The notes beneath the pieces were generated by a model. That model was not told the origin of the DNA and did no database searches. It saw nothing but the letters and a program-made list of their open reading frames with translations. Shown piece after piece: positions 1 through 63,600 of a DNA stretch of 64,000 nucleotides. The translations under genes and the position numbers were made by a program. This DNA is from Terebella lapidaria (taxonomy: Eukaryota; Annelida; Polychaeta; Terebellida; Terebellidae): the NCBI GenBank assembly GCA_949152475.1, contig OX424555.1, positions 12,356,868 through 12,420,867 on the forward strand, read 5' to 3'. How positions within the stretch are numbered: the stretch's first letter is position 1; every line of letters starts with the position of its first letter.

Positions 1-223
1 TAAATCTCAGAACTTTATTTGTGGTAAGGCAAGTGCTGCGAGTCCACGATCGGTAAGCGTGACGGAAATTGGCTGAATTGTGTTTGTCAAAATCGCGTTT
101 ATTTCCATGATATTGCATATTTTCTCGTCGCGCGGGGAATGGCCTTATGTGTAGTAGAATATGTTGTGACAAAAATAGTTTATTGTTTCAACAGTAATAG
201 TTCAATAATAATGAGGCAAAATT

Positions 224-565
224 CATATGTAAAGCATGAGGTGCACATCTTTTAAATTAAATATATTTAGGAATGAATTAATACAAAAAAATGAAACTTG
301 GAATTTTGACATACAGTATGATAATTATCATTTAAAAATTGGAGTGCATTGATTTGACGTAACATGCAGTTGAACAAAACAGCGAAAAGCAAGTCATATG
401 TAAAGCATGAGGTGCACATCTTTTAAATTAAATATATTTAGGAATGAATTAATACGATAAAATGAAACTTGGAATTTTGACATACAGTATGATAATTATC
501 ATTTAAAAATTGGAGTGCATTGATTTGACGTAACATGCAGTTGAACAAAACAGCGAAAAGCAAGT
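224..565. repeat. 171-bp tandem duplication
   Basis: Two head-to-tail copies (224-394 and 395-565) match almost base for base. The visible difference is a few bases in an A-rich run (AATACAAAAAAATG versus AATACGATAAAATG). The unit is AT-rich, has no credible reading frame, and resembles nothing else in the window. The near identity suggests a recent local duplication. Flanks 1-223 and 566-680 hold nothing I can identify. Confidence 0.9.
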
Positions 566-2039
566 CCTGAAAAGGCTCAAGGCCACATGGTCGATCTTCA
601 GACATTCTCATTTGAACTTAAATTTATTTTATTAATTGAGCAATCAAATTGGAGAGAGATTCGTATACATGTATAGAAAATTAGCCCAAAGGCTAAGATA
701 GGTTACCGGACAATATTGGTTTGGCCATGGCAGCATTGGCACGTAACAGACCTTGAGATTTACCAATCAAGGTTCGCAGTGTGAACATATGACCTTGAGA
801 TTTACCAATCAAGGTAATCCGTGTGAACTTCGATGTCACCATTACATGTATGTGTGCGGCATTTGATATTCTATATGTTCATAATACAGTGATCTGGGTG
901 GAATCGTTTAGGCCGCTCAGGTCAATTTACACATTCCGAGTCAGACATTTGGCACTCAAGGTCATCTGACGTCAAGGTCATCATTAGTTGTGCCATATAT
1001 GTCTTCCTATATGTTCATAATGCAAACATAAGTTCCATCTGCAAGCATTTCATCTATAGAGGCAAATCTGGGCATTTTTTGATCCCAAAATGGCTTTTTG
1101 ACCTTTCAAGGTCATCGAAGGTCAAATTCAAGGTCACCACACAAATCGCCATATATGACTTCCCATTTGGAAGTGCCAATTTCTAAGCTGTATCTTCAAG
1201 TGTTCTATGAATACAGTCCTGACAGCTCCCATTATGAAGGAGAAAAGTGCCGACAATTTTTTTCAAAGGGTGAAAACATTTTTTTTGTCTAGAAATGGCC
1301 CAAAATGGATAGTAATGCGATTTGGGGCGAAAAAATATTTTTTTGCCGACTCGTCAAAAATTCATAATGGCCGCCACACGGAGATCGGCGATTCAAGGGC
1401 AACAAAACTTATACACATCACAGAGGTATATAAGAGGAATCTTTTAAAACAAAAATCTCAAAACTGATCAGAGAGTTTTCGAGAAAATACAGACTAGGTG
1501 CATTTTTGAGCATTTTTCGACCCAAAAATGGCTGTTTCGACCTTTCAAGGTCATCCAAGGTCAAATTCAAGGTCACCACACAAGTCGCCATATATGACTT
1601 CCCGTTTGAAAGTGCCAATTCCCAAGCTCTATCTTCAAGCGTTCTACGAGTACAGTCCTGACAGCTCCCATTATGAAGGAAAAAAGTGCCGAAAATTTTC
1701 TCAAAGGGTGAAACTTTTTTTGCCTAGAAATGGCCCAAAATGGATAGTAATGCAATTTGGGGCGAAAAATTTTTTTTCCGCCGACTCGTCAAAAAATCAA
1801 AATGGTCGCCACACGGAGACCGGCGATTCAAGGGCAACAAAACTTATACACATCATGAAGGTACAGAAGGGGAATTTTTTTAAACAACAATATCAAAACT
1901 GATCATACAGTTTTTGAGAAAATGGCTGCCAAAGTTCAAAATTGGCCATTTTTCAACAAAAATGACTGCCATTTTGGAGAAAAGGCGAAAATAAAAAAAA
2001 AATTAGCCCAAGGGCTAGAAAGGTTACCGGACAATATAC

Positions 2040-4440
2040 ATTTTAGATATTAGCCTTTTGTCCAGTGACCTTGAAAATAAAGTCACTGATAAATTCAAGG
2101 TCATGAAATTTTCAACAAATATATCACTTCTAGTATGTCCACAATAAATTCCTAAGCTGTAAAGTCGATAATAAGTGAGACATTAGCCATTCTGTGATGT
2201 GACCTTGAAAATGAGGTCAAAGTTCAAGTTCAAGGTTATGAAAATATTCAGTATATATCATTCCTCTATATTCGCAATTGATTCCTATGCTGTAAATGTA
2301 AGTATCAATCTATTACCACCAATACAATCAGATTTTGATGATGCCAATAAGAAACGTAAAATACTACATTTTGCAATAGAAACAAACAAAGCCCGACCAA
2401 ATAGTTTATCCAAAGACACACTGGCGTCTTCAGGGGCAGACAATGTGTTAAATGTAGTTGTTTCTACTGTACACCAGATGGAATTAGTATACAACTGCCC
2501 AACAACCTATGAAAATAATTTAGAAATCCGAATCTAACCCCATGGAATAGATACATGACAAGTACAAAAGTACCCAATCACAAGCCAGAAGGCTACTGAG
2601 TTGATGGTATCCTCGGGGACAGATTTAACGTCCGCCAGCAGTGACACCGACTCAGTGGTACAAATGTAAGTATCAATCTATTACCACCAACACAATCAAA
2701 TTTTGATGATGCCAATAAGAAAGGTAAAATACATTTTGCAATAGAAACAAAGCCCGACCAAATAGTTTATCCAAAGACACACTGGCGTCATCAGGGGCAG
2801 ATGTAAAGATGATAATAAGCGACATATTAGCCATTTTGTTCTCTGACCTTGAAAATGAGATCAAAGGTCAAATTCTAGATCACCAAAATATTCAGCATAC
2901 ATCATTTCCTATATGTTCACTATGGACCCCTAAGCTGTAAATTTGATAATAAGCGAGATATAAGCCATTTTGTAATCTGACTTTGAAAATAAAATGACTG
3001 ACCTTGAAATTTAGGTCAAAGGTCAAACTCAATATCATTAAAATATTCAGAATATCTCATTTCCTATATGTTCACAATTGATTCCTAAGCTGTAAAGTCG
3101 ATAATAAGCAAGATATTAGCCATTTTGTCCTGTTGAGCTTGAAAATGAGGTCAAAAGTCAAATTCAAGGTCACTAGAATATTCAGCATATATCATTTCCT
3201 ATATGTTCACAATTGATTCCTAAGCTGTAAAGTTGCTAAGAAGCAAGATATTGGCCATTTTGTCCTGTGACCTTGAAAATGAGGTCAAAGATCAAATTCA
3301 AGGTCACGAGAATATTCAGCATATATCATTTCCTATATGTTCACAATTGATTCCTAAGCTGTAAAGTCGATAATAAGCGAGATATTAGCAATTTTGTCCT
3401 GTGACCTTGGAAATGAGGTCAAAGGTCAAATTCAAGGTCACGAGAATATTCAGCATATATCATTTCCTATATGTTCACAATTGATTCCTAAGCTGTAAAG
3501 TCGATAATAAGCGAGATATTAGCAATTTTGTCCTGTGACCTTGGAAATGAGGTCAAAGGTCAAATTCAAGGTCATCAGAATATTCAGCATATATCATTTC
3601 CTATATGTTCACAATTGATTCCTAAGCTGTAAAATCGATAATAAGTGAGATATTAGCCATTTCGGCCTGTGACCTTGAAAATGAGGTCAAAGGTCAAATT
3701 CAAGGTTATCAGAATGTTCGGCATATATCATTTCCTATATGTCCACAATTGATTCCTAAGCTGTAAAGTCGCTAATAAGCAAGATATTGGCCATTTTGTC
3801 CTGTTGACCTTGAAAATGAGGTCAAAAGTCAAATTCAAGGTCACTAGAATATTCAGCATATATCATTTCCTATATGTTCACAATTGATTCCTAAGCTGTA
3901 AAGTCGATAATAAGCAAGATATTAGCAATTTTGTCCTGTGACCTTGGAAATGAGGTCAAAGGTCAAATTCAAGGTCACGAGAATATTCAGCATATATCAT
4001 TTCCTATATGTTCACAATTGATTCCTAAGCTGTAAAGTCGATAATAAGCGAGATATTAGCAATTTTGTCCTGTGACCTTGGAAATGAGGTCAAAGGTCAA
4101 ATTCAAGGTCACGAAAATATTCAGCATATATCCTTTCCTATATGTTCACAATTGATTCCTAAACTGTAAAGTCGATAATAAGCGAGATATTAGCCATTTT
4201 GTTATGTGACCTTGAAAATGAGGTCAAAGGTCAAATTCAAGGTCACGAGAATATTCAGCATATATCATTTCCTATATGTTCACAATTGATTCCTAAGCTG
4301 TAAAGTCGATAATAAGCGAGATATTAGTCATTTTGTACTGTGACCTTGAAAATGAGGTCAAAGGTCAAATTCAAGGTCACGAGAATATTCAGCATATATC
4401 ATTTCCTATATGTCCACAATTCATTCCTAGTCTCTAATTT
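2040..4440 (+). repeat. Tandem array of ~134-bp core monomers rich in AGGTCA
   Basis: About a dozen contiguous copies lie between 2880 and 4430, with more degenerate ones from 2040. Spacing measured between GAATATTCAGCAT blocks is 134 bp (for example 3307 to 3441 to 3575). Each unit runs: TGACCTTG, a short A-rich spacer, AGGTCAAAGGTCA, AATTCAAGGTCA, GAATATTCAGCATATATCA, TTTCCTATATGTTCACAA, TTGATTCCTAAGCTGTAAAG, TCGATAATAAGCGAGATA. Unit-to-unit identity is high, so the array is young or homogenised. The same monomer appears in the other family members at 9.5-10.2, 34.1, 35.8, 47.8, 51.7 and 63.4 kb. Confidence 0.92.
2294..2803 (+). other. Exon-like insert, partly duplicated, inside the core array
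   Basis: Non-core sequence interrupts the array. A ~145-bp block (2294-2440) recurs at 2661-2803, with 220 bp of unrelated sequence between. The middle block has an open stretch of about 35 codons ending in ...SASSDTDSVVQM, directly followed by a consensus splice donor (AAAT then GTAAGTATC, near 2661). The first block reads on to ...SSGADNVLNVVV...HQMEL, a loosely similar peptide. This looks like a captured fragment of a host gene with exon and intron start, later duplicated. I do not recognise the parent gene and cannot prove capture. Confidence 0.45.
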
Positions 4441-5439
4441 CAATATTAAGTGAGATATTAGGCTTAATGTGTCCCATTATAAAGCATAGGAAAATTTAAC
4501 ATGGGAAAGTCACATTTTGGCCGAGTTTGGTCCCAAAATGGCCCACTTCAAGCGATTCAAGGGCAACGAAATTTATACATGTCACAGGGGTACATATGAG
4601 GAGTGTTTTTCATCAATAAGAAAGAAAAGTTACTGAACAGATTTTGAGAAAACGACCGTCAAAGTCCAAAATTGGCCATTTTTCGACGAAAACGGCCGCT
4701 CTAACCTTGAAACCAAGGTCAGAGGTCAAATTCAAGGTCACGACAATATTCAGCATATATCATTTCCTATATGTCCACAATTGATTCATAGTCTCTAATC
4801 TCAATATTAAGTGAGATATTAGGCTTTAATGTGTCCCATTATAAAGCATAGGAGAATTTAACATGGGAAAGTCCCATTTGGGCCGAGTTTGGGCCCAAAA
4901 TGGCCCACTTCGAGCGATTCAAGGGCAACGAAATTTATACATGTCACAGGGGTACATAGGAGGAGTGTCATGCATCAATAAGAAAAAAAGTTACTGAACA
5001 GATTTTGAGAAAACGACCGTCAAAGTCCAAAATTGGCCATTTTTTGACGAAAACGGCCGCCATTTTGAAAAAAATGCGAAAATCAAAAAACTAAAAAAAA
5101 CCTTTCCTGGAAATATTTTTAGGTATTTTTGTGCAAAATTTCAGAAAGATTCGACCGTAAACTTTAAAGATAAAAATGTGAACGGACGACGGACGGACGG
5201 ACGGACGGACGGACGACGGACGCAACGCCACGGCAATAGGTTATCGGACCAAAGGTCCGGTAACCTAAAAACTAAAAAAAACACCTCCCTCTCGAAATAT
5301 TTTTAGGCATGTTTGTGCAAAATTTCGGGAAGATTCGATCGTAATCTTTAAAGATATTAATGTTGACGGGCGACGACGGACGACGACGACGGACGCAACG
5401 CCATGGCAATAGGTTATCGGACCAAAGGTCCGGTAACCT

Positions 5440-6275
5440 GAACTGAGAAATATCTAAATTTTAGCAAAAACACTCCTCATATATAAACGCAAAATCCCTT
5501 CACGTAAATATTTGCTCAACTAAATAAGCTCAACCTAAATTTGAGTGACTTGCGAGCAATCTTAAATGTTTAAACAAGCACATAGAGAACATTATATATC
5601 AATAATTACACGTGTGCTGATGAATGTCATCTCAACAGCACAACTGATGCGACTGTCTGTTTGAAGGAAACTAACAGATATTGTGTAACCGAAGGTATTA
5701 CTACACTGATTTATTTCTTAAATTTAAGTTAATAATAATCATGAATATGTGTATTGTTCCGTGTGAACTCAAATCGAGTATTTCAAAGCAGTGTAAATAG
5801 TGAATTTGTATGACGTGTCTTGTTAGCTATCTGCCACTCCTAGGGCATCATTTCCTTACGATTATACACGTAATATTCATGACTGGATAGTGTGGGTGGC
5901 TCAACGATGCTCATAATTTATATTACTATTTGCATAATACTTTTGCGTACTGCATGTGACCTGTTCCAGTTCAATATTTCAGTGTACATTAATAGGCTAC
6001 TTACTGTCGTATCTGTCAAAATTATACAGAGCTAGAAACTGATTGCTTTCTTAGTCAGCTACTAGTACCAGTTTACGGAGTTCATTCTGGCTGCCTATTG
6101 GAAAGCGTACATACTTCACTAAATCTTTCAAATTTTTAAGGTAATGTTTCATATATTAAAAGGGACCTACATGGGCAAACCAGTAAAGGGGGTTCAAATC
6201 ATACAAAAATAGAAAGAAAGAGAAATTCAAAATTGTAAAAAGATCAATTTGTGGGGACTAGTGATACAAAGAAAA
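5440..6275. other. Intergenic DNA, nothing recognised
   Basis: AT-rich unique-looking sequence without a convincing open frame, repeat or RNA gene. Confidence 0.5.
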
Positions 6276-7623
6276 TTAGCCCAATGGCTAAGATAAGTTA
6301 TTTTGGTTCAAGTACCACAGGTGAGATCTGACATTGAGATCAAGTACTCAAGGTCATCTGAGGTTAAAAACAAGGTCACCAAAAGACTTCCTAAATGCTC
6401 ATAAACATAACCTATCTACAAGCATTTTGTGTATAGAGGCCAATTTACACATTTCATTTCCCCGTGACCTTGAGATTTAGCCTCCAATGTCATCTGAGTT
6501 CAACCTAAAGGTCCCCAAAAGATGCACCATATATTACTTCCTATATGCTTACAATACAAACCTAAACCCTATGTAAAAGCGTTCTTGCCCCATACGGCAA
6601 TTTGTGAATATTGGCCTTTTTAGGCATTTCCAGCCCACAGATTGGACTTTTTCAGCAATTCAAGGCACTATATGAATAATGTCAAGGACCCCAATTAGCA
6701 TGTTCTGAAACAAAAATCTCAAAACTGATCAGACAGTTTTCGAGAAACAACCAAAAACTAAATTTTGAGCTTTATTGGGCCATTTGAGCCATAATTTTGG
6801 GCCTATCAATCGATTCAAGGCACTCCATCTTTAAAAACAATGTCGAGGACCCCAATCAGCATGGTTTGAAACAGAAATCTCAAAAGTGGTCAGTTTTCGA
6901 GAAAACAATTAAAACTGAATTTTGGGCCTTTTTGGGCCATTTGAGCCTAAATTGTAGGCCTATCGATCGATTCAAGGCACTCCATTTTCATATACTATGT
7001 CAAGGACCCAACTTAGCATGTTTTGAAACAAAAATCTCAAAAGTGATCAGACAGTTTTCGAGAAAAGACAGTTCCCCGTTTGAAAGTGCCAATTTCTAAG
7101 CTCTATCTTCAAACGTTCTAGGAGTACAGTTCTGGCAGCTCCAGTTATGAATGAAAAAAGTAGCGAAAATTTTCAAAGGATGAAAATTTTCTTTTGCCTA
7201 GAAATGACGCAAAATGGATAGTGACACGATTTAGGGCCAAAAAAAAAGTTTTTGCCGACCTGTCAAAGATTCAAAATGACCGCCACACGGAGATCGGCGA
7301 TTCAAGGGCAACAAAACTTATACACATCATAAAGGTACATAAGGGGAATCTTTTAAAGCAAAAATCTCAAAACTGTACGAAATCGGGCGATTTTCATCTA
7401 AGAATGGCCGCCATTTTGGAAAAAGTTGCAGAAGTGAAAAATACAATTATCTCCCTCTTGAAATATATGTCTTCCCCCAAAAATCAGCCGAATCAGCCGC
7501 AAGATTCGTCTGTAAACCTTTATAGATAAAAACAAATAAAATGTAACGTTACGGTGTAGACGGCGGTTGCCGGGCGACGGACCAAGCGCCATGCAATTAT
7601 AGGTTATTGGACCTTGGGTAACC
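6276..7623 (+). mobile_element. GGTTACC-family repeat element, diverged copy
   Basis: It starts with TTAGCCCAATGGCTAA, the same end hairpin with one changed base, followed by a decayed AGGTTACC block. It ends with a decayed terminal hairpin (AGGTTATTGGACC...GGTAACC, 7601-7623). The interior shares blocks with 711-2000, for example the stretch around 'CCGCCACACGGAGATCGGCG' and 'GGGCAACAAAACTTATACAC'. It lacks the 134-bp core array, so it represents the array-less form of the family. More substitutions at both ends than in the first copy suggest an older insertion. The open frames at 6797-7529 are repeat artefacts. Confidence 0.75.
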
Positions 7624-9032
7624 AAATAGTTCAATGTTCAGTAAACTAATATCTAACAATACAGTCTGGATTCCGCACTGCACGATATACACGATTGTAC
7701 TATAAAAGTGCATGATATAATAAACGAACAAAACACACAAGCATCTGGGATACTGGGCTCATCACAGACATAAATGAGATTTCATAATATGTTCTATAGC
7801 TTTCGATTGTTCATTCAACTACCTGACCGCAACAGGTAACCAGGTAACATCACGCATACAGGCAGCATCCAGTACATAATGCATGGACGTAAATGGTCTC
7901 TCTATGATACATGGCAATATTAGCTAAATTATACATAGTCGCTCTTCACACACAATAATAATCCGCAGAGTGCACGAACGACGGACAACGACTCCTATGG
8001 ACCCGGTGTAATATTACCAATTGCATGTTTACTCCAATAGATGTAGCAGTGCATGACGTGTCAGCCAATTACTCTATTAGTATTGAACCCAAAAATAGTT
8101 GAAGCGAGGAGCATTTTTCATGTACTGGAAAACACATAATTCATTTTACATTAATATTACTGTAGTGATATTGAGATTACTGGTTAACTCAGCAGAAGTT
8201 ATTAGTTTAGGTATTTTATTGTCCACAATAAAATTATCAAGCTTAGAAACATTTAACATTGTACAAAACGAAACCAAGTCTTGTCCAGTAAAGGTGTAAT
8301 TGATGAACTAAATTTAATTAGTTAGAGCTGAGACTGGATTTATTTATAGTAGATATTTTATGGGGTAATGATGTTGATATTGCTGAATAAGTTGAAATGA
8401 ATTAAGTCTATTAAGTCTATCATATTCCACAATAAAAATACTAGTTAAGGTGAGCAAAATTTATTTTTGGACTAAACAATACAAGGGTTTAATCAAGTAG
8501 ATATTGTACTTTTGTAATTATAATATTGATTTTCACCCACTTACCATGTTATCAATAGTCAAAAGATATCATTGGTAAAAGATATCATCATCATATTGAA
8601 TATATTCAGTCAAGATATTAAATTTGAATCCATATTGCCAACGCCTCATCTCCAACACGGCTACACCCTTGACAACAGGGGTTGTCTACACCATTGACAA
8701 CAGTACCAAAGTAGTGATGTATCAATGATGAGTCGAGACATAGTGGCACCTGAAATGCTAAACAGTCTCGTGTGCGAGTGCACAGGCAGTTGTACCACGG
8801 ACTCTGAGAGCCATGTACTGTTCACTGGAATGTACAGGCCATGACTCAGTGAACACGAACAACAGATATGGTAATACTCAGAATACTGTAATTTCGAAAT
8901 TGTAGTCGGCATTCAAAAATAATATCTTACTATTAAATGGCCTCAGTCTGAATGAATAGCAATATTTTTACCTTAATGTTTACAATGCATCACCTGGGAA
9001 ATACTTGTCGGCATTAACCTGCAGTATTTTTT
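7624..9032. other. Intergenic DNA, nothing recognised
   Basis: AT-rich DNA between two repeat copies. I see no gene, RNA or clear repeat apart from short local redundancies around 8560-8700. Confidence 0.5.
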
Positions 9033-10325
9033 AGGTTACCGGACCTATGGTCCGATAACCTATTGGCGTGGCGTTGCGTCCGTCGTCCGTCGTCCGTCGT
9101 CGTCGTCGTCGTCGTCCGTCGTCGTCGTCCACATTTTTATCTTTTTTGTTTACGGGCGAATTTTTCTGAAATTTTGCACAAAAATACTTAAAAATATTTC
9201 AAGAAGGAGGTATTTTTTAGTTTTTTGATTTTTCAAAATGGCGGCCGTTTTCGACGAAAAATGCCTGATTTTGGACTTTGACGGCCATTTTCTCAAAATC
9301 TGTTCAGTAACTTTTTTTCTTTTTGATACATAAGACTCCTCATATGTACTCCTATGATGTCTATAAATTTCGTTGCGCTTGAATCGCTCGAAGTGGGCCA
9401 TTTTGGCCTAAACTCGGCCCAAATGGGACTTTCCCATGTTAAATTCTCCTATGCTTTATAATGGGACACATTATGCCTAATATCTCACTTGATATTGAGA
9501 TTAGAGACTAGGAATCAATTGTGGACATATAGGAAATAATATATGCTGAATATTCTCGTGACCTTGAATTTGACCTCTGACCTCAGTTTCAAGGTCAGAG
9601 CACAAAATGGCTTATATCTCGCTTATTATCGACTCTACAGCTTAGGAATCAATTGTGGACATATAGGAAATGATATATGCTGAATATTCTGATGACCTTG
9701 AATTTGACTTTCAACCTCATTTTCAAGGTCACAGGACAAAATGGCTAATATCTCGCTTGTTATCGACTTAACAGCTTAGCAATCAATTATTAACATATAG
9801 GAAATGATATATGCAGATTTTTTTTCATGACCTTGAATTTGACCTTTGACCTGATTTTCAAGGTCACAGGACAAACAGGCTAATATCTCACTTATTATCG
9901 ATTTTACAGCTTAGGAATCAATTGTGGACATATAGGAAATGATATATGCTGAATATTCTCGTGACCTTGAATTTGACCTCTGACCTCATTTTCAAGGTCC
10001 AAGGACAAACTGACTCATATCTTGCTCCTCTATTGACTGTATGGCTTGGGAATCAATTGTGGACATGATATAGAAAATGATATACATTGAATATTTTGAT
10101 GACCTTGAATTTGACCTTTGCCCCTTCATTTTCAAGGCCACAGCACAAAATTGCTAATATCTCTCTGATTATTGAATTTACAGCTTAGCAATCAACTGTG
10201 GACATGATATATGCTTAATGTTATATATGCTGAATATTCTCTTGACCCTGAATTCAACCAGTGACCTGGCTAACATCTAAAATATTAAACATTGTCCGGT
10301 AAACTATCTTCGGCCCTTGGCCTAA
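9033..10325 (-). mobile_element. GGTTACC-family repeat element, minus orientation
   Basis: Read on the minus strand it starts with the left-end hairpin (10325 down to 10310) and the decayed AGTTTACCGGACAAT block, and passes through about six diverged core monomers (10260 to 9490). It then runs through the conserved tail (9480 to 9130), a CGACGG/ACGG microsatellite (about 9125 to 9075) and the terminal hairpin with arms on either side of TAT at 9034-9060. Both ends are present, which fixes its extent at about 1.3 kb. AGGTCA half-sites remain in most monomers although the units are diverged. Confidence 0.82.
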
Positions 10326-27549: not shown

Positions 27550-27955
27550 TCGCTACGGTGGCTCTGAAGGGACATGTGTGTGAAAAAATATTATCTCGAG
27601 CGCTCGACATATTATCTCGAGCGCTCGAAATAACAAAGCAAGCGCTTGACATAAGATAGCGAGCGCTCAACATATTCATATAGAGCGCTCGACTTCGTCA
27701 TCACGAGCGCTCTACATGGTATTGCGAGCGCTCGGAATATTAAAGCAAGCGCTCGACATAATAAAACGAGCGCTCGAAATAATAAAGCAAGCGCTTGACA
27801 TAATATAGCGAGCGCTCGAAATAGTATTGCGAGCGCTCGAAATGATAAAGCGAGCGCTCGAAATAATAAAGCAAGCGCTTGACATAATATAGCGAGCGCT
27901 CGAAATAATATTGCGAGCGCTCGAAATAATAAAGCAAGCGCTCGACATCATATGC
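27550..27955 (+). repeat. 21-bp palindromic-core tandem array (AGCGCT)
   Basis: About 17 units, each 21 bp, alternate GAGCGCTCGAAATAATAAAGC-like and AAGCGCTTGACATAATATAGC-like forms. Every unit centres on an AGCGCT palindrome. The left flank (GGTGGCTCTGAAGGGACATG then GTGTGTGAAAAAATATTATC) is shared with a second array at 47.1-47.46 kb in the opposite orientation, so this is a dispersed element. The 7-residue protein repeat (ISSARxI) read through it is a by-product of the 21-bp period. Confidence 0.88.
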
Positions 27956-33847: not shown

Positions 33848-34094
33848 ACCCACCATAAGTATCCATATATACAGTGGCCGATTCATGCCATAATCAGTTC
33901 TTCCCTGAATATTTCTTCCCTGAATAGAAACCATTAAAGCCGCAAATCAAAAAATCGTTTTTGCCGAGATCAATGCATTTCCGCTGCAGCAAGAATAATT
34001 ACTACCTCGGCGCTAATTGTACAAACTGTGAACATTCGCTGCAGCGTTAAGGGCAATAATATATAGTTTGTTCTCTTTGAGTTAGATATTAATA

Positions 34095-34570
34095 AAGTAG
34101 ATATCAGCCATTTTGTGCTTTGACCTCGAATTTGAGGTCAAAGTTCAAATTCAATGTCATCGGAATCTTCGGCATATATCTTTCCTTATATGTCCACAAT
34201 GAATTCCTAAGCTGTAAAATTGATAATAAGCCAGATATTACACCCTTTTGTGCTCTGACCTTGAAAATGAGGTCAAAGTTCAAATTCAAGGTTCAGCATA
34301 CCGGTATATCATTTTCTGTATGTCCACAATTGATCCCTAAGCTGTAAAGTCGATAATAAGCGATATAAAGTTGAAGGTCATGAGAATATTCGGCATATAT
34401 CATTCCTTATTTTGTTTAATTCCTAATCAGGTGTCTCATTATAAAGCATAGGCCGCCACACGCAGACCCGCGATTCAAGGGCAACGAAACTTACACACGT
34501 CACACATATTCGCCCGTAAACTTTAGAGAAAAATGTAGACGGACGACGACGACGGACGACGGTAACCTAA
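34095..34570 (+). mobile_element. GGTTACC-family fragment (in duplicate copy 1)
   Basis: It contains three diverged core monomers with AGGTCA sites, then the conserved tail (GTCTCATTATAAAGCATAGG), a short CGACGG microsatellite and a terminal GGTAACCT. The left end and much of the tail are missing. Confidence 0.75.
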
Positions 34571-35059
34571 AAAAATAGTCTGAAAGATTTCACTTTTTTC
34601 AGAATAACGCGACTATACAGCCGTTACACCATACTGATAGAATGTCCACCGGAACCAGATTCTCGGTGCGACCAACGCCAACCCCAACCCTCATCCCCTG
34701 TAATAGGTTTTACAAACAATTTATAGGGGATATCCAGTTCCGTATATACAAAAGGGGGATGAATCAAAGAGTCTTTGGGTGAATCTCTATCAATGTTATC
34801 AGCATAACCAGTCCAACTTTTTAAATAATTTAACGTATATTTTAGTTTTCAGGAGTATTACCGCGTGGTATAAAAATAGTCATGGCGCAGAACTTTTAGT
34901 ACTGATATTGATGAAACACACTGGCCTGGCAGTAATGGTATTTTGTCTTAATTAACATAATTGGGCAACATGGATGATATGGCATCAGGGGGATACAGCC
35001 CGACGACCGACTCATCTAGTCATCAACACTCTCCTTCTGCCCCAGACCCAACAGTGGCC

Positions 35060-35545
35060 GATTCATGCCATAATCAGTCTTTCCCTGAATAATTTTCGTT
35101 GCGAATTGAATTGTGGCGACTGAAATCATTAAATCCGTGACCAGAACGTTTTCGCTGCATCGAAAAGCGTTGTTGCTACGACCAATAGGGGCCTACATTT
35201 TGCTGCAGCGAGAATAAATACCACCACAGCGATAGTTGCTCTAACTGTGAATATTCGCTGCGGCGATAATTGCAATAATACATAGTTTGTTATCTCTGAA
35301 TTGATGTAAGAAAAACTTTCCATTCTCGCCGCGGCAATAATCATTTTTGCTGCAGCGAGGATGTTTTGGTCGCGAGAACAATTTCGCTGCAGCGAAAATG
35401 ATTTTGGTCGCAACGATAATGTTTTTGCCGCATCTCAATGAAAACTTTTTGGTCACGGATCTAATGATTTTCATCTTGATTTCAGTCGTCACAATCAAAT
35501 TCACGACAAAAAAATGTTCAGGAAAAACGCATCATGGCATGAATC
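35060..35545. mobile_element. Inverted-repeat element with GCTGCAGC palindromes (copy 2)
   Basis: Same element as 33362-33847, carried in the second duplicate 1698 bp away, with two single-base differences seen. Confidence 0.75.
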
Positions 35546-35792
35546 ACCCACCATAAGTATCCATATATACAGTGGCCGATTCATGCCATAATCAGTTCTT
35601 CCCTGAATATTTCTTCCCTGAATAGAAACCATTAAAGCCGCAAATCAAAAAATCGTTTTTGCCGAGATCAATGCATTTCCGCTGCAGCAAGAATAATTAC
35701 TACCTCGGCGCTAATTGTACAAACTGTGAACATTCGCTGCAGCGATAAGGGCAATAATATATAGTTTGTTCTCTTTGAGTTAGATATTAATA

Positions 35793-36269
35793 AAGTAGAT
35801 ATCAGCCATTTTGTGCTTTGACCTCGAATTTGAGGTCAAAGTTCAAACTCAAGGTCATCGGAATATTCGGCATATATCTTTCCTTATATGTCCACAATGA
35901 ACTCCTAAGCTGTAAAATTGATAATAAGCCAGATATTACACCCTTTTGTGCTCTGACCTTGAAAATGAGGTCAAAGTTCAAATTCAAGGTTCAGCATACC
36001 GGTATATCATTTTCTGTATGTCCACAATTGATCCCTAAGCTGTAAAGTCGATAATAAGCGATATAAAGTTGAAGGTCATGAGAATATTCGGCATATATCA
36101 TTCCTTATTTTGTTTAATTCCTAATCAGGTGTCTCATTATAAAGCATAGGCCGCCACACGCAGACCCGCGATTCAAGGGCAACGAAACTTACACACGTCA
36201 CACATATTCGCCCGTAAACTTTAGAGAAAAATGTAGACGGACGACGACGACGGACGACGGTAACCTAAA
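35793..36269 (+). mobile_element. GGTTACC-family fragment (in duplicate copy 2)
   Basis: Second-copy counterpart of 34095-34570. It differs at a few sites, including a restored AAGGTCA (CTCAAGGTCATC) where copy 1 reads TTCAATGTCATC. Confidence 0.75.
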
Positions 36270-36989: not shown

Positions 36990-37665
36990 TCCTTGAGGCT
37001 TACTGCATATCTCGTTAACGGTGAGTCGTAGAGCGAAACGGATGTTATTTTTCGGACTCGCGACAACAGACATACATGTCTCAGGGGTATGTTGGTATAT
37101 GTTGGTATAATTTTTTTGCTAGGTCGGCATTTTTTTCATTTCAGTCGATGTCTCAGGACCAGTGTGTCGTAAAGCGAAACGAACGTTAATATCGTACTCG
37201 TGACACTAAGCAAACATGTCTTATTGGTTTGTTGGGTGAACAAAGCCCTCGGCATGATCTTAGGGGTATTTGGTATGAACTTTGACCTTGACCTAAATTT
37301 TTTTGCTGTGTCGACATTTTTCATGTTCGACGTTATTTCGGAACCTGTGCATCGTAGAGCGAAACGGACTTTATTTTCGGGCACGTTGCCCCATAAAGGT
37401 ATGTCTTTTCGGTATTGAGAATAAACTTTGACCTTGACGTGGAATTTCCATTGATATCTCGGAAATGATGAATCATAGAGTGGAAGGGACGTTAATGTCT
37501 GGCTTGTCGCTCTATACCAACATGTCTAAAGGCTATTAGGGACGAACCTTTACCTGAATGTTTTTTTTTCTGAGTCGGCAGTTTTCTTTTTTGTCGATAT
37601 CTCGGAAACGGTATGTCGTAGAAGAAAACAGACGTTATAAACTCTTGGCCCTATACAATCATCTG
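36990..37665 (+). repeat. Degenerate ~145-bp tandem repeat
   Basis: Five divergent units are marked by GTCGTAGAGCGAAACGGATG-like blocks near 37025, 37165, 37350, 37470 and 37615. Each is preceded by a TATCTCGGAAACGG-like block, and two by TTTGACCTTGACC. Copies are only 60-75% alike by eye. It sits just upstream of the HECT gene. Confidence 0.65.
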
Positions 37666-47117: not shown

Positions 47118-47460
47118 AACTATCACGAGCGCTCGAGTTGAACAAGTTGAGCGCGTGCTTTGTTATGTAGAGCGCGCGAGATAATATGTGAAGCGCCCGA
47201 GATATTATGTCAAGCGCTCGAGATGAACAAGTTGAGCGCTTGCTTTGATATGTAGAGCCCTCGCTATATTATATTGAGCACTCGAGTTAGTTAAGTCGAG
47301 CGCTCTATATGAGTATGTTGAGCGCTCGCTATATTATGTCAAGCGCTTGCTGTGTTATCTCGAGCGCTCGAGATCATAAGTCAAGCGCTCGATATAGTAT
47401 GTCGAGCGCTCGAGATAATATTTTTTCACACACAGGTCCCTTCAGAGCCACCGTAATTCG
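47118..47460 (-). repeat. 21-bp palindromic-core array (AGCGCT), second copy
   Basis: About 14 units with AGCGCTCGAGAT and AGCGCTTGCT cores, more diverged than at 27.6 kb. It ends in GATAATATTTTTTCACACAC then GTCCCTTCAGAGCCACC, the inverse of the left flank of the first array. Confidence 0.85.
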
Positions 47461-47744
47461 CGTCAGTTACTACATGTTTCCCCACGATAAATCATAATGC
47501 AACTCAACATATACATTCAATGTTATCTTTCGACAACAATCAATATAGATAATGAGCAACATGGTTAGCTCAGAGTGTATAGACATATTGGCCAGCGCGT
47601 CGCTGGTTTTCTAAGTTTGGGTAAAGACATACCCACGGAGGGTAGGCATGGACGGCTCCGGTCCTGCTGCTACCACTTGTTTTAAATATGGTCATCTCAA
47701 CAAAAGGATCACAGCACTTTAAAAAATTAGCCATTTCATCCCAT

Positions 47745-48047
47745 TTACCTCAGAAATAAGGTCACTGGTCAAATTCAAACTCACAAGAATATTCAGCATA
47801 CATCATTTCCTATATGTCCACAATTGATTCCTAAGCTGTAAAGTCAATAATAAGCAAGATATAATAAGCCATTTTGTGGTATGACCTTGAAAATAAGGTC
47901 AAAGGTCAAATTGAAGGTCAAAAGAATATTCGACGAATATCATTTCCTATGTGTCCACAATTGATTCCTAGTCTCTAATCTCAATATTAATGAGATATTA
48001 GGCATAATGTGTTCCATTATAAAGCATAGGAGAATTTAACATGGGAA
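47745..48047 (+). mobile_element. GGTTACC-family fragment
   Basis: Two diverged core monomers, one with AGGTCAAAGGTCA (about 47897), and the start of the conserved tail (AGTCTCTAATCTCAATATTA ... CATGGGAAAGTCCCAT). It breaks off abruptly at 48047 into unrelated DNA. Confidence 0.8.
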
Positions 48048-49941: not shown

Positions 49942-51689
49942 ATGGACATATTCATATTATAAATGTTTATTTAACCTCTGTTTTCTCATGTACAATGTAT
50001 AAGGCCCCTACAATGAGCAGCAAAAGGTAACAAACATTTTATTCTGTAGACCTATGCAGCTTAAAGTGAAGCAATCTCAAAATTCGAGATTTCGCGGGGC
50101 GGCCATTTTGAAAACCAATTTTTGCAATGGATGCGCAACCGGAGACATATGTAATGTTTATTAGTATTAAAAAACCTTGAGAAAAAAGTTGGTTTTGGAG
50201 GATCATGGGGGAAGGGGTGCAAAGGGACCCCCCGTACATGCCCGACTAATAGTTTAATTTTAGGAGCTATAGTTCTATCTATCACCATGTAACATTATGC
50301 CAAAAATACCATCGATCCATATCGCGTTATGGATAGATAGATAGATAGATAGATGTTTTATTAGCCCATTTCTGGGAATTTGCCTTGCATTCATCTCAGA
50401 GATACAATTCACATACCTTAAGATTCAGAAATACCCACCATTTTTTTGTGTAGCACAGTAAATATTGCAGCATTGAATATTACTAAATTATTTTTATCAA
50501 ACCCAATATGGGGAAAAAGGACTAGAAATAGCAATTGAGCAAGCAATATTATATTAAAGAAGAATTTTGAAGTATTTAATCAAATTTTAGGATGCCAAAT
50601 GACAAAGTTAAATTACACAATTTTACGCGTCACCGTTCATATAGAAATATACATTAACAAATCTGCTAACTATTTTTCCAACAATTGCCACATACCCAAG
50701 TCTATGAGCCGAGCCTTACTTTTTTAGATTTCCCCCTCAAAACCATACAATGGATTTTTGAAGTTGACTCTGCTGTGAGAACTGAACAACAAATCCATCA
50801 TGGCCACAGGCTCACTTCCAAGGGGACTACTTTTTTAACCCTTGTACACCTATGGAACATTCATTCATTGTCTGGAAGGGGAAGATGTATGACAAATAAG
50901 TTGAATAAGTGAGAACAAGCAGATATACTTTGTTTACAGGAATCTTGTGTGCCACATGCTACAGGCACCTGCCTGGACTGTGTGTGCAGTCATGTGTAAC
51001 ACACCTGCAAGGTGCACACTGCTTTCCTCATGTTCATAGAAGCTCAAATACTAGTACATGATGTGCATGTCAAGAACAAGTCAGTATACTGCTCAAGCTG
51101 TCATATTAATCTGCAATACTGAGGTTAAATACTACTAATAAATAACTGAATACACAACATATTTTCAGAACATATATATTTTTCATTATTAATATTGTAA
51201 ATGGTTCAATTCTGCCATGCCAACACATACAAGAACATGTACAAGTGGAATTTATAAAAGTGATTAATTAAAAATTTTTATTTACAAAATTCAGTAAATT
51301 AATATACCTAGTATTACCTACCAAGCATGAAACACAAGTATTAAAACCATCGTTAATTTAATTCTTGATTACAAGTTGTTTGACATTAGTTTCATTTATT
51401 GAGTCACTTTTATCATAGGCACACACACTTATCCAATTGGTCAGTTCATTCTTTTCTCTATATTAGTTGCCAAGAAAGTGGCTCAAAATAACTGACATAA
51501 AAAATACCACAATTTGTACTTAACCATAATGACAATATGCTAGGTCATGATGCAATCAGGCTGTTTCTCAATAAATGTATTTACCATATATGTTCAATAT
51601 TTCAATAGTTTCCTGTATAATAGAAAAACAGTACTCAAATGCTCATATGAAAATTGTATACTGGAAATTCAATAATGAGAGAGATAATA
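49942..51689. other. Intergenic DNA with a GATA microsatellite
   Basis: (GATA)n at about 50333-50353 is followed by TGTTTTATTAGCCCATTTCT. On the minus strand this reads as a TAATAAAACA-(TCTA)n tail, which could be the 3' end of a non-LTR retroelement or SINE. I cannot identify a body. Nothing else is supported. Confidence 0.4.
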
Positions 51690-52366
51690 ATCATCATGTC
51701 CTGTGACCTTGAAAATCAAATCAAATGTCAAATTAAAGGTCTACAGAATATTCAGCATTTATCATTTGCTGTATGTCAACAATTGATTCCTAAGCTGTAA
51801 AGTCGATAATAAGCGAGATATTAGCCATTTTGTCCTGTGACCTTGAAAATGAGGTCAAAGGTCAAATTCAAGGTCACAAGAATATTCAGCATATATCATT
51901 TCCTATATGTTCACAACTGATTCCTAAGCTGTAAAGTCGATAATAAGCGAGATATTAGCCATTTTGTCCTGTGACCTTGAAAATGAGGTCAAAGGTCAAA
52001 TTCAAGGTCACGACAATATTCAGCATATATCATTTCCTATATGTCCACAATTGATTCCTAGTCTCTAATTTCAATATTAAGTGAGATATTAGGCTTAATG
52101 TGTCCCATTATAAAGCATAGGAGAATTTAACATGGGAAAGTCCCATTTGGGCCGAGTTTGGGCCCAAAATGGCCCACTTCGAGCGATTCAAGGGCAAAGA
52201 AATTTATACATGTCACAGAGGTACATATGAGGAGTGTTATGCATGAATAAGAAAAAGAGTTACTGAACAGATTTTGAGAAAACGACAGCCAAAGTCCAAA
52301 ATTGGCCATTTTTCGACGAAAACGGCCGCCATTTTGAAATAATTGCGAAAATAAAAAAACTAAAAA
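51690..52366 (+). mobile_element. GGTTACC-family core and tail fragment
   Basis: Three core monomers (two with perfect AGGTCAAAGGTCA, at about 51852 and 51987) lead into the conserved tail. The tail stops before the microsatellite and joins directly to the left end of the next copy at 52367. Confidence 0.85.
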
Positions 52367-55300
52367 TTAGCCCAAAGGCTAAGATAGGTTACCGGACAAT
52401 TTTGGTTTGGCCATGGCAGCATTGGCAGGTAACAGAGCTTTTACCAATCAAGGTTCGCAGTGTAAACATATCACCTTGGGATTTACCAATCAAGGTCATC
52501 CGTATGAACTTCGATGTTACCATAACATGTATGTGTGCGGGATTTGATATTCTATATGTTGGGTGGAATCGTTTAGGCCGCTCAGGTCAATTTACACATT
52601 TCAAGTCAGACATTTGGCACTCAAGGTCATCTGACGTCAAGTTCAAGGTCATCATTAGTTGTGCCATATATGTCTTCCTATATGTTCATAATGCAAATAT
52701 GAGCTCTATCTGCAAGCATTTCATCTATAGAGGCCAATCTGGGCATTTTTTTGACCCCAAAATGGCTGTTTTGACCTTTCAAGGTCATCGAAGGTCAAAT
52801 TCAAGGTCACCACACAAGTCGGCATATATGACTTCCCATTTGAAAATGCCAATTTCTGAGCTCTATCTTCAAGCGTTCTATGAGTACAGTCCTGACAGCT
52901 CCCATTATGAAGGAAAAAAGTGCCGAAAATTTTGTCCAAAATTTTTTTCAAAGGGTGAAAAATTTTTTTGGCCTAGAAATGGCCCAAAATGGATAGTAAT
53001 GCTATTTGGGGCGAAAAAATTAGTTTTCGCCGACTCGTCAAAAATTCAAAATGGCCGCCACACGGAGATCGGCGTTTCAAGGGCAACAAAACTTACATAT
53101 CTAGTCTCCCTGTGTCGGCTGATGTTGTTGACCATATATTTGTGTCCGATGTCGTCGACCCTCTGGATGTTCAGCAGATTCAACTGAACGACACCGATGT
53201 GGGCTGTGTTCTACAATGGAAGCTGGATGGGAAGCGACCTTCTGATGAGACCTTGGCCACCAAGTCCAAAGAAGTCAAGCTGTTGAGTCGACAGTGGGAT
53301 TCTCTCCTCGTCATCGATGGGATCCTTTATCGCCAATCCGGAAGTGGTCTCCCAAGGTCGAAACAGATTGTCATTCCGTCCAGTTATCGGGACCATGTGA
53401 TGACCAGCCTACACGAGGAACTTGGACATCCTGGAAGGGACAAGACCATCACCTTAATCAAGCAGCGCTTTTACTGGCCTGGACTAACATCTGATGTTGA
53501 CAACAAAGTCTCCAGATGTCGGCGTTGTCTCTGCCGGAAGTCCCATGGTCAGAAAGCCCCACTAGTACCGATTTTGACAACTCAACCAATGGAATTGGTC
53601 TGCATCGACTACCTTCTCGTGGAACCGTCACATGGCTTCGAACATCTTCTCGTCATCATCGACCATTTCACCAAATTCGCTCGGGTAGTGCCAACACGGA
53701 ATGAGTCGGCGAAAACCACCGCGAAGGCACTCCTGGAGAATTTCATCAACCTCTATGGTTATCCTCGCTCCATCCATTCCGATCAGGGTCGGAATTTCGA
53801 GTCATCGATCATCAAGGAGTTGTGTACTTTAACTGGGATTGCAAAATCCAGAACCACTCCTTATCATCCCATGTGTAACGGAGCCTGCGAGAAGATGAAC
53901 CAGACTTTATTGAAGATGCTCGGGACTCTGCAGAATGAGAAGAAGACAAGGTGGAAGGATTATTTGAGTACGTTGGTCCATGCTTACAACTGTATTCCGC
54001 ATGAGACCACAGGATTCGCTCCATACGAACTCATGTTTGGCAGAGTTCCATCACTTCCGATCGACCAGGAGTTTCAGCTCAGGGGAGAGGGTACAGTCGG
54101 TGACTGTACACAGTACATTCGGGACTTGCGGGAGCGGATCTCCTACTCCCACAAGATGGCTGCGGAGAAGATGGCTCAGAAAGCCTCCACTCTGAAACCA
54201 AGGTGTCGTCCTGCAGCAGTCCTGAATGTCGACGATGAGCTTCTTGTACGGAAGCTTGTGCTGACCGGCAGGAACAAGCTGGCCGATAGATGGGAGGATG
54301 ATGTATATGTCATCTTGGAACAGCCCAACCGGGACATCCCTGTCTATCGTCTAAAACCCAAGCATGGCAAAGGTCGAGTCAGGACACTCCATAGGAATCT
54401 CCTTTTGCCACTTGGTACCGTCAGCTCTGAACATGAGTCTGACCGCCAGTCACTCATTGTTGAGGGGAAGACGTCGAGACCTCCATCTCGTCCACCACCA
54501 TCACCACCGAGATCAGTACCTCCAGCTCGACGACCACCATCGCCACCGAGGTCGACTCCCCCTACAAGGACTCCTCCTCCACCACCTCCAAGTTCCGGGA
54601 GTGAGGACCAACTATGTGTTGAGTCCAGTGATTCCGACGATCAGACTGTGAAGACGTCATCTTCCTCTGACGGCAATGCTTCCGTTCGACGGTCCAAGCG
54701 CCGGAGGAAGCCACCTGACCGTCTTCAGCCTGCTATGTTCCAGCAGGAAGCGTCGGTTTCATTCAACGACAAGTCTCGGTTCATTCTCCAACTGGTGGAT
54801 CGAATGTTTCCTTGAGGCGTCGCTCTTGAATATGAAATTGAATTGGACCACCGATTTGGAAACCGTCTAGAATCTTCGACTACGGATAACGGACATTGAT
54901 TTGTCAGCCTGGATTTATTTGTTTATTTATTTTGTGATCCTTGCATGAGGCTTACACTTCTTTCCATTTTCATTCCAGATTCATTTCTTTCCATCTCCAT
55001 TTCAGTTTGTCATCCTAAATGTCGGGACGACATTTTTCATTCGGGGGAAGCATGTGATAGGATCACCCAACCGCACATTTTAAATGACACCTCCCCATTT
55101 AGCGTGACGCTTCATGTCGGTGTTTCCCCCTAGCAACTTCGCGCTGTTGCACAAACAAACGACGCAGTTCGCCATTTGGGAGTGACCGGACAACATCGTT
55201 GCTTAAGTTTAGATCCAAAATCTGACTTTCACCGGTCCTCCCATCTTACAGCAACACGGAAATCAGCTGCCGGTAAGTGGAATCAACATCATCGTCTGAT

Positions 55301-57161
55301 TATCTGTGTATTTTGTTCATATTCCCAATTCGAAGTTAGGATTCTTGTCTTTGTTGTCGAAGCCAGTTTCCCGCCATTTGCCGATTATCGCTCGGCCTTT
55401 GTTTACATTAAGTTCTCGATAACTGATCCATAGGTAATTCCCATTTAAACATCTAAACCTAAAACAACATTCAAACATCAATAGCGATTACAATTCAGGT
55501 AAACAGATTTAAACCAGAACCGTCATGGTTGCGTTATGATCATCCAGTGTTTCAATCGTCATCAATCATCTGCACTGTGTGTATAATTGTGATTCTTTTA
55601 TCCAGGTTGTGGGCTTGACACCTTTTATCGACCATCGGCCGTTTACCCCCTCGGCATATTTTAACATCACCAGGGGTAAGATCTCGTTTGGGTTCATTCA
55701 TATGTATTTATTCTTTCATCCCTTTGAGTCATATTTCATACTTATTAGTTATCATTCATATTTTGTTATGCATTAGTTATATGCATGTAGTTTGGTCATT
55801 TGGTTTGTCATTTCACCATTTGTATATATTCATATCAAGTCATTGTATATATTTATTAATATCGTTACAGGGTAAATTTGATAGACAATAAACCCGTCAA
55901 ACTCCCGATGTGTCTTGATGCGCTAATTACAACACAACCCTGAAACACATGTCACAGAGGTATATAAGAGGAATCTTTTTAAGCAAAAATCTCAAAACTG
56001 ATCAGACAGTTTTTGAGAAAATACAGACCAGGTGCAAATTTGAGCATTTTTCGACCCAAAAATGGCTGTTTTGACCTTTCAAGGTCATCCAAGGTCAAAT
56101 TCAAGGTCACCACACAAGTCGCCATATATGACTTTCCATTTGAAAGTGCCAATTTCTAAGCTCTATCTTCAAGCGTTCTATGAGTACAGTCCGGACAGCT
56201 CCCATTATGAAGGAAAAAAGTGCCGAAAATTTTCTAAGTCCAAAATTTTTTTCAAAGGGTGAAAAAAAATTTTTGCCCTAGAAATGGCCCAAAATGGATA
56301 GTAATGCGATTTGGGGCGAAAAATTTTTTTTTCGCCGACCCGCCAAAAATTCAAAATGGCCGCCACACGGAAACCGGCGAATTTAGGGCAACCAAACTTA
56401 TACACATCACAGAGGTATATGAGGGGAATCTTTTGAAACCAAAAACTCAAAACTGATCAGACAGTTTTTGAGAAAATGGCCGTCAAAGTCCAAAATTGAG
56501 CGTTTTTCGACAAAAACGGCCGCCATTTTGAAAAAAATGCGAAAATCAAAAAACAAAAAAATACCTCCTTCTCAAAATATTTTTAGGCATTTTTGTGCAA
56601 AATTTCAGAAAGATTCGATTGCTAACTTTAAAGATAAAAATGTTAACGCCGGACGGACGGACGGACGGGTGAACGGCCAGGCGTTACGGGCGGACCCAAT
56701 GTTAAATTTCCTATCTTAACTTTCCCCATAAGTCCTGAAAAAATCCCCATAAGACCGCACTTTCGGCTTAAACTGTGGTTGTGGGGCGTTTTCAGCTTTA
56801 TTCCCCCTAAGAAATCCCCATAACTCCGTTCCGTTTGCCCGGCTAGACGGACGGACGGACGACGGACGCAACGCCATGCCAATAGGTTATCGGACCAAAG
56901 GTCCGGTAACCTAAAAATACCTCCCTCTCGAAATATTTTTAGGCATTTTTGTGCAAAATTTCAGAAAGATTCGATTGTAAACTTTAAAGATAAAAATGTA
57001 GACGGACGATGACGGACGCCGACGGACGACGACGGACGACGACGGACGACGGACGCAACGCCACGGCAATAGGTTATCGGACCAAAGGTCCGGTAACCTG
57101 AAAATGTGGACGGACGGCGCCGACGCTGACGACGACGCGGACCATAGGTCCGGTAACCTAA
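52367..57161 (+). mobile_element. GGTTACC-family element carrying a nested LTR retroelement
   Basis: The left end TTAGCCCAAAGGCTAAGATA then GGTTACCGGAC (52367-52393) and the variable region match 681-1420 closely. The sequence is interrupted near 53095 and resumes at 55948 at the matching place (GTCACAGAGGTATATAAGAG). After the tail there are three successive terminal segments: one ends at 56913 (preceded by an unusual block with CCCCATAA repeats), the next at about 57100, the last at 57161, each closed by GGTCCGGTAACCT. The 134-bp core array is absent. Confidence 0.85.
53096..55947 (+). mobile_element. Ty3/Gypsy-like LTR retrotransposon, partial copy (fossil)
   Basis: The 3' part of an LTR element nested in a GGTTACC-family repeat. 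Parts seen: an integrase region (zinc-binding HHCC-type block, RNase-H-fold core, basic and proline-rich C-terminal tail; about 53.1-54.8 kb), a polypurine tract near 55042, and a 3' LTR of about 895 bp (55053-55947, TG...CA). No gag, protease, reverse transcriptase or 5' LTR is present, so the element is broken. The integrase region reads open over about 1.7 kb, and the host repeat flanking it is itself well preserved, so insertion looks fairly recent. Confidence 0.85.
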
Positions 57162-62749: not shown

Positions 62750-63600
62750 ACGTTACCGTCCCTATGGTCTGATAACCTATTGTCCTGGCATTGCGTCTAT
62801 CGTCTGTCAGTCGTCCGTCCACATTTTTAGGTTACCGGCCCTATGGCCATTGCCGCTTCATTGCGTCAATCAGCGTCGTCCATTGTCGTCATCCGTTACA
62901 TTTTAGGTTACCGGGCCATTGGTCTGATAACCTATTGCCGTGGCATTGCGTCTGTTGTCCGCGGTTGTCCATCATCGTCCGCGGTCGTCTGTCTACATTT
63001 TTATCTTTAAAGTTCACGGGCGAATCTTTCTAAAATTTTGCACAAAAATGCCTAAAAATATTTCAAGAGGGAGGTTTTTCTTTTTCGCATTTTTGCCAAA
63101 CTGGCGGCCATTTTTGTCGAAAAACAGTCAAATTTTTCTGGCCATTTTCTAAAAACAGTCTGTCCAGATTTTAGATTTTTGTTTGAAAAGATTCCCCTTG
63201 TATATCGTTGCCCTTGAATTGCCAGTATGCGTGTGGCGGCCATTCGATTTTTTCGACATGTCCCATATTGCACTTTTTCGTGCTTTACAAATTTTCCTGT
63301 GCTTTATAATGGTACACATTATTCTTAATATCTCACATAATATTGAAATTAGAGATTAGGAATTAATTGTGGAGATATAGGAAATGATATATGCCAAATA
63401 TCCTTATGACATTGAACTTGAACTTTGAACATATTTTAAGGTCACAGCACAAAATGGTTAATATCTCGCTTATTATCGACTTTTCAGCTTAGAAATCATT
63501 GTGAATAAATAGGAATTGATGTATGCCGAACATTTTTGATGACCTTGAATTTGACCTTTGAACTCATTTTCAAGGTCAATGCACAAAATGGGTAATATAA
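62750..63600 (-). mobile_element. GGTTACC-family element with three successive terminal segments
   Basis: On the plus strand three terminal segments follow one another (near 62752, 62829 and 62904). Each starts with GTTACCG plus a decayed hairpin and a decayed GTCGTCCGTC stretch. The conserved tail (63000-63350) and two to three core monomers (63350-63595) follow. The copy stops at about 63600 in mid-monomer. Confidence 0.8.

Follow-up and report, generated by a model that had tools for sequence, protein, structure and literature searches.

The dense clusters of nuclear-receptor half-sites that recur in the genome of the polychaete Terebella lapidaria are likely, in our judgement, to be inherited transposon sequence which happens to make an excellent candidate receptor target, and which has spread as the central tandem repeat of a HINE. 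The anatomy of the element, its copy number and the concentration of receptor sites within repeats were observed directly, and are described below beginning with the window, by which we mean the whole 64,000-nucleotide stretch analysed (assembly GCA_949152475.1, contig OX424555.1, positions 12,356,868 to 12,420,867 of the forward strand).

Anatomy of the carrier element and its arrays in the window

A sequence-only reading of the window had described the 134-bp repeat at 2040-4440 as mobile, and this is borne out: judged by its anatomy, the array is inside a HINE-type non-autonomous Helentron. On the minus strand the order of parts is a 5' subterminal inverted repeat (subTIR), an inverted repeat complementary to it, a microsatellite, central tandem repeats, a 3' subTIR and a palindrome. 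In several copies one terminus carries the subTIR AGGTTACCGGAC and the opposite terminus GTCCGGTAACCT; the inverted repeat complementary to the 5' subTIR takes the form of a hairpin, GGTTATCGGACC AAA GGTCCGGTAACC; the microsatellite and central tandem repeats are represented by an ACGG run at 5182-5222 and by the 134-bp array; and the palindrome near the 3' end, TTAGCCCAAGGGCTAA, adjoins the subTIR. The flanks of the array are TTAGCCCAAGGGCTAA-GATAGGTTACCGGACAA on the left and (ACGG)n...AATAGGTTATCGGACCAAAGGTCCGGTAACCTA on the right, although some of the arrays examined for ends did not have both ends inside the fetched stretch. The 14-bp end motif AGGTTACCGGACAA occurs in 15,564 exact copies in the genome. 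The features of the window are as follows.

1063 to 1649, plus strand: two B-type units (435-bp period) with ER4-DR4-DR6 half-sites, belonging to the outer element
2003 to 5267, minus strand: HINE-type non-autonomous Helentron (by anatomy) with the 134-bp array; left end TTAGCCCAAGGGCTA and TTACCGGACAA, right-end hairpin GGTTATCGGACCAAAGGTCCGGTAACC, the canonical 5' end lying on the right; a B-type element at about 681-5440 encloses it
2003 to 2017, minus strand: 3' palindrome TTAGCCCAAGGGCTA
2021 to 2034, minus strand: 3' subterminal inverted repeat AGGTTACCGGACAA
2045 to 2287, plus strand: two 134-bp units, the first part of the array
2802 to 4429, plus strand: main 134-bp array, 12 units matched, with eight perfect DR1 at 3013-4367
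4671 to 4789, plus strand: further partial 134-bp unit, having a DR1 with G spacer at 4716
5182 to 5222, plus strand: ACGG microsatellite beside the right end
5235 to 5267, minus strand: 5' subTIR and complementary inverted repeat, AATAGGTTATCGGACC AAA GGTCCGGTAACCTA
9509 to 10271, minus strand: second 134-bp array, in an inverted HINE copy with ends near 9030 and 10305
34090 to 36108, plus strand: a 1.3-kb duplication with old 134-bp units, which lack a perfect DR1, in its first copy (34090-34410) and its second (35788-36108)
37025 to 37612, minus strand: degenerate array of the 147-bp (E) unit
47725 to 47970, plus strand: two 134-bp units, one with a DR1 at 47896
51661 to 52060, plus strand: three 134-bp units, two with a DR1 (51852, 51986), in an element interrupted near 52366 by a B-type element ending near 56913
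63357 to 63598, minus strand: two 134-bp units without DR1

Two nested HINE pairs are present, one at 681-5440 (an A-type element, carrying the 134-bp unit, within a B-type element) and one at 51661-57101 (B within A), both in A-runs. For the B-type element that interrupts an A-type element at about 52366-56913, an uninterrupted equivalent near 5094 places the insertion in an A-run; this nested case is the one that bears on T-run insertion without target duplication, and the run would mask any short duplication. After its second unit the 134-bp array is split, at 2288-2801, by a stretch that has an internal repeat (ATGTAAGTATCAATCTATTACCACCAA...) and the look of inserted foreign DNA. The window also contains, at 27597-27953 and 47164-47421, two arrays whose 21-bp unit includes the palindrome CGAGCGCTCG. 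Across the genome there are at least 150 scored matches to the Helitron_like_N domain, many of them in frames open for more than 2,000 amino acids; they are found on contigs C1-C17 and on small contigs, several with identical score, and the open frames and identical scores together suggest recent Helitron or Helentron activity.

The window holds 12 perfect DR1 sites (AGGTCAAAGGTCA), where dinucleotide shuffles lead us to expect 0.01. Eight are within 3013-4367, the number that the sequence-only reading had given for the array, and those it had placed at 47.9, 51.85 and 51.99 kb are at 47896, 51852 and 51986, so that only the site at 9840 on the minus strand had been overlooked. Its further claim, that each 134-bp monomer holds three motifs within about 40 bp, was accurate as to distance (39 bp in the 134-bp consensus) and too strong as to 'each': the consensus carries all three, but among the 14 monomers matched in 2040-4440 we found TGACCTTG in 13, a perfect DR1 in 8, TCAAGGTCA in 10 and all three in 6. 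The consensus block is TGACCTTGAAAATGAGGTCAAAGGTCAAATTCAAGGTCA, with the half-sites spaced as ER8, DR1 and DR6, and the consensus half-site arrangement of a nuclear-receptor response element is present both in the window and in the genome counts. The duplication at 34090-36108, of at least 1.3 kb and with old 134-bp units inside both copies, is 99.4% identical over 1318 bp; its second copy does retain a site lost from the first, as had been claimed (TCAAGGTCA against TCAATGTCA), and this single difference says nothing about selection.

Concentration of receptor sites in repeats across the genome

Exact counts on both strands of the 761.6-Mb assembly (438 contigs), with the reversed pattern as control, returned 59,461 perfect DR1 AGGTCAAAGGTCA against 49, 364,916 copies of TCAAGGTCA against 5,590, and 18,648 of AGGTCANNNNAGGTCA against 239. 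The module of the 134-bp unit (family A), AGGTCAAAGGTCAAATTCAAGGTCA, occurs 29,323 times and AAGGTCAAGGTCAAAGGTCATCC, from the 147-bp unit, 2,577 times, neither having a single reversed match. The base composition of a 200-kb sample predicts about 23 perfect DR1 in the genome, and chance is ruled out as the source of their abundance by the 59,461 matches against 49 for the reversed pattern. The module has no match in viral contigs; a 19-base piece of it has 14 matches in prokaryote contigs, where the best match to the unit has E=0.0068.

The distribution of these sites was assessed in 20 arbitrarily placed 10-kb loci, taken at round coordinates on contigs C1-C9 and amounting to 198,946 bases. 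Families A (134 bp), B (about 435-455 bp) and E (147 bp) cover 8,006 of these bases (4.0%) and contain all 13 of the DR1 with any spacer base (AGGTCANAGGTCA), 76 of the 88 copies of TCAAGGTCA (TCAAGGTCA) and 150 of the 239 AGGTCA hexamers, although the family masks derive from unit models in which the half-sites are included, and the E cut-offs (as high as 0.01 or 0.001) were lenient, with the result that a few 'inside' sites may be counted on account of the sites themselves. Outside the three families AGGTCA is at random frequency in this sample, with 89 in 190,940 bases, or 4.7 per 10 kb against 4.65 calculated from base composition. When the window is added (264 kb in all), 28 of 29 DR1 with any spacer lie inside the families, which answers for this sample the question of how DR1 is divided between the inside and the outside of the repeats. 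AGGTCA is absent from the consensus of the other tandem repeats sampled, for example a 332-bp unit, possibly a classical satellite, of which some 30 copies fill positions 1-10000 of one locus (L016, C2:7000001-7010000).

DR1 is an established binding site of HNF4 and COUP-TF, as TCAAGGTCA is of NR5A and ERR. The genome has 65 matches to the zf-C4 domain, many of them part-domains; five complete or near-complete domains were fetched, four of which were readable by pattern. One is closest to HNF4-alpha (E=1.9e-41) and one to COUP-TF1 (E=1.5e-44), while for a third the best match is RXR-alpha (1.1e-31), with NR2C2 and NR5A2 close behind. Since HNF4-like and COUP-TF-like domains are encoded by the host, cognate receptors exist and binding is possible; we infer that receptors may bind the arrays.

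Half-site conservation and alternative explanations

The main rival explanation, which we regard as unlikely, is that the transposon itself depends on the half-sites as working parts. Receptors of NR5A, ERR, HNF4 or COUP type would bind the array in the germ line or early embryo, binding would open chromatin and permit transcription or excision, and units keeping their half-sites would spread best. There is a precedent in the mouse 2-cell embryo, where, according to an extract of the published account, 73.6% of NR5A2 peaks overlap SINE B1/Alu (PMC12848575). To measure variation among monomers we used those with at least 105 aligned bases (134-bp unit; 110 for its first consensus) or 110 (147-bp unit). 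Loci beyond the 20 arbitrary ones were picked at DR1, module, 147-bp-module or DR4 matches on C1, a choice that could favour intact half-sites, and rows repeating other loci were dropped (L002, L006, L007, L037-L040 and the part of L008 overlapping L005).

Among 176 A monomers from 20 loci, substitution at half-sites is 0.050, while the 91 other positions outside CpG stand at 0.087; after matching for base the difference is 0.050 (interval 0.044-0.058 by bootstrap over loci), and a permutation stratified by base gives p=0.0036. As 117 of these came from 13 motif-chosen loci, the test was repeated on the other 59, drawn from the window and the arbitrary loci (7 loci), with a similar outcome (0.056 vs 0.091, p=0.015); the 28 monomers of the arbitrary loci alone (6 loci) gave 0.052 at half-sites and 0.094 at other positions (p=0.018). 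The ratio of shared to private variants is likewise lower at half-sites, at 6/31 vs 41/73 in the 176 monomers (p=0.026) and, with shared taken as present in at least three loci, 6/49 vs 35/98 in the 59 (p=0.020), but this deficit vanishes in the arbitrary loci alone (2/24 vs 13/73, p=0.51). The proportion of columns that have a shared variant is not significantly different at half-sites and at other positions (6/30 vs 32/91, p=0.17). The higher variation at other positions comes mostly from a few hypervariable columns, the medians being 0.040 and 0.057. At consensus positions 40, 43, 83, 84, 86 and 117 a fraction of 0.33-0.49 of the monomers differs from the consensus, and five of these six columns are near the edges of the half-site block. 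Other blocks of the 134-bp unit are as conserved as the half-sites, whose intact hexamers rank 4, 28, 32 and 37 among 104 windows.

The claim that half-sites equal or exceed the remainder of the unit in conservation therefore holds for the 134-bp unit and fails for the 147-bp unit, in which, across 79 monomers from 9 loci, they vary more than other positions (0.095 vs 0.061); only 8 of these monomers came from outside motif-chosen loci, too few to repeat the test. A lack of better conservation at half-sites was among the outcomes that the sequence-only reading had named as refuting its interpretation, and it is what the 147-bp family shows. Even in the 134-bp family the advantage is slight, since 5 of the 134 rotations of the half-site mask, including the true placement, are at least as conserved, a figure that rises to 16 of 134 for the 59 monomers of the window and arbitrary loci. 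Half-sites of the 147-bp unit are also richer in columns with a shared variant (9/21 vs 8/95, p=0.0004). Selection tolerating changes of the form RGKTCA was considered and rejected, as the shared variants do not agree on any one pattern. In the 147-bp unit a change of A to G at position 1 and one of G to T at position 3, both large, are of that form; of the five listed in AGGTCA of the 134-bp unit one is (G to T), while G is replaced by A in three. We read the evidence of constraint as real but modest in one family, with none for a general rule. The 147-bp family, lacking superior half-site conservation, counts for an origin as inherited transposon sequence, while the modestly better conservation and lower shared/private ratio in the 134-bp family count against it.

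The spacer of DR1 bears on the same question. In the otherwise exact A module the spacer is G in 13,401 copies and A in 29,323 genome-wide, a freedom that speaks for working parts; but one linker base varies no more than the half-sites do, and indeed less (G in 225 copies, compared with 768 for a base within a half-site), and a single amplified subfamily may account for the spacer-G form. The spacer position is also missing from about 7% of A monomers, which turns DR1 into DR0.

Families A, B and a third family, C, can be aligned downstream of the half-sites and are therefore related. When they were located by this downstream flank, leaving the half-sites unused, and AGGTCA was scored up to 45 bp upstream, it was present at 173 of 185 places for A, 31 of 33 for B and 15 of 19 for C, a retention that speaks for working parts. 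The arrangement differs, with DR1 at 94/185, 0/33 and 0/19 places and DR4 at 0/185, 26/33 and 4/19 respectively (excluded were matches whose start lay past seed position 14, anchors having under 70 bases upstream, and a twentieth C row, mis-sliced at the edge of locus L030). The family consensuses, built from 184 of the 185 rows of A, all 33 of B and 18 of the 20 of C, are 82-88% identical at half-sites and 66-74% elsewhere, a difference too slight to help that explanation (p=0.16, 0.049 and 0.43). The 147-bp unit E has its half-sites as DR0 and DR1, and by eye no sequence alignable with A was seen outside them. That two units which look unrelated both carry DR1 is poorly explained by chance origin, and so counts against the reading we prefer and in favour of working parts.

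A broader version of the same idea, which we think improbable, is that several transposon families separately kept or acquired AGGTCA clusters because receptor binding in the germ line or early embryo licenses their activity; Helentron carriage applies at least to the 134- and ~450-bp units. If this were true, rolling-circle transposons would form a hormone- or stage-responsive system and would be the source of most receptor sites in the genome.

Co-option by the host, whether of some copies as enhancers or of the arrays as a receptor-titrating sink, is more doubtful again. Some 365,000 TCAAGGTCA and 59,000 DR1 sites, and a host that encodes HNF4-like and COUP-TF-like domains, would suit it, and a sink has been discussed for Alu-borne HNF4 sites in an extract of that work (PMC3252374), but many units have lost their sites, with a perfect pair of the second and third half-sites in 98 of 176 A monomers and all four half-sites in 67. 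To a role in DNA structure, in which the arms TGACCTTGAA and TTCAAGGTCA would form a hairpin, or TTGTCCTGTGACCT of the unit would pair with the element end, in the service of replication or transposition, we assign an equally low probability: the consensus has ten-base perfect arms, and the unit's 12/14 match to the reversed subTIR was equalled by 5 of 5000 shuffles, but that match was noticed post hoc, the 147-bp consensus module has direct half-sites only, and a hairpin constraint on the arms is rejected because among 176 monomers they do not covary (two paired and three unpaired double changes, where independence predicts 2.98; of the single changes, 97 disrupt a pair and 43 preserve one). 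The match in question aligns TTGTCCTGTGACCT, at A consensus positions 36-49, with the reversed element end TTGTCCGGTAACCT, and suggests, post hoc as it is, that the A unit may derive from the element's own subterminal repeat.

Spread of the sites and comparison with known systems

Under our preferred reading, that of inherited transposon sequence, the non-autonomous Helentron would have moved by rolling-circle transposition, as its HINE anatomy indicates, with transposition proteins probably supplied in trans and the 134-bp unit carried along at each move, while unequal exchange or replication slippage may have lengthened the arrays. As the ancestral unit would have had four AGGTCA half-sites (ER8, DR1, DR6), each burst of transposition would have multiplied them, until nearly all DR1, to judge from the sample, lay within these repeats. 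Youth or homogenisation of the copies is probably the main reason why the half-sites have survived, and where copies are in open chromatin HNF4, COUP-TF, NR5A or ERR would probably bind opportunistically.

Repeat-borne receptor sites (Alu-DR2, Alu-HNF4) and HINEs carrying tandem repeats are both already known; of receptor sites in mollusc or Helitron repeats or HINEs we found no report among the open-access papers searched, as judged from titles and abstract openings. The ISX element of Drosophila is a Helitron. The published systems compared here are represented by extracts of the papers cited, except where a main text is named. ISX resembles the present element as a transposon that disperses protein-binding sites (PMC4384637). 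Cg_HINE of Crassostrea gigas has subTIR, complementary inverted repeat, microsatellite, central tandem repeats mostly of 140-180 bp and palindrome (PMC7492417), and the likeness extends to the order of these parts and to the presence of several repeat families on related ends. Cg_HINE inserts into oligo-T without target duplication, for which we have one A-run case in which the run masks a short duplication; the likeness is one of architecture, monomer sequences not being part of the comparison, and the extract, unlike our description, mentions no receptor half-sites (PMC7492417). The main text of another paper on oyster satellites has 0 occurrences of nuclear receptor, of transcription factor and of binding site (PMC8268682). 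DINE-1/Helentrons are similar, again by architecture, in their subTIRs and palindrome, central repeats and T-rich insertion, and differ from the present element in that receptor sites are unmentioned in the extract (PMC4067079).

The repeat-borne receptor sites compared here are in SINEs. Alu-borne DR2 makes a mobile repeat the source of about 90% of one class of receptor motif genome-wide (108,582 DR2), the sites having arisen largely via CpG deamination and binding having been established by ChIP; here the carrier is a DNA transposon, the sites are in tandem arrays, DR1 is in the unit consensus and the evidence is sequence (PMC1785376). Alu-borne HNF4-alpha sites likewise place receptor sites in a high-copy repeat, with binding and transactivation demonstrated there and, in our case, motifs to set beside them (PMC3252374). 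SINE B1 in mouse embryos carries the NR5A2 motif TCAAGGCCA, one base from TCAAGGTCA; occupancy and function were measured in that system, a SINE rather than a Helentron, and it is an example of wide occupancy of a receptor site carried by a repeat (PMC12848575, extract).

If receptors bind even part of the arrays, the receptor cistrome of this animal would be largely transposon sequence, and a search for receptor targets by motif in genomes of this kind would for the most part pick out a transposon. With some 365,000 TCAAGGTCA sites, the genome offers a clear test system in which to ask if sites carried by repeats are put to use, are ignored or serve as a sink, most of the TCAAGGTCA sites (76 of 88 in the sample) being in families with differing half-site spacing.
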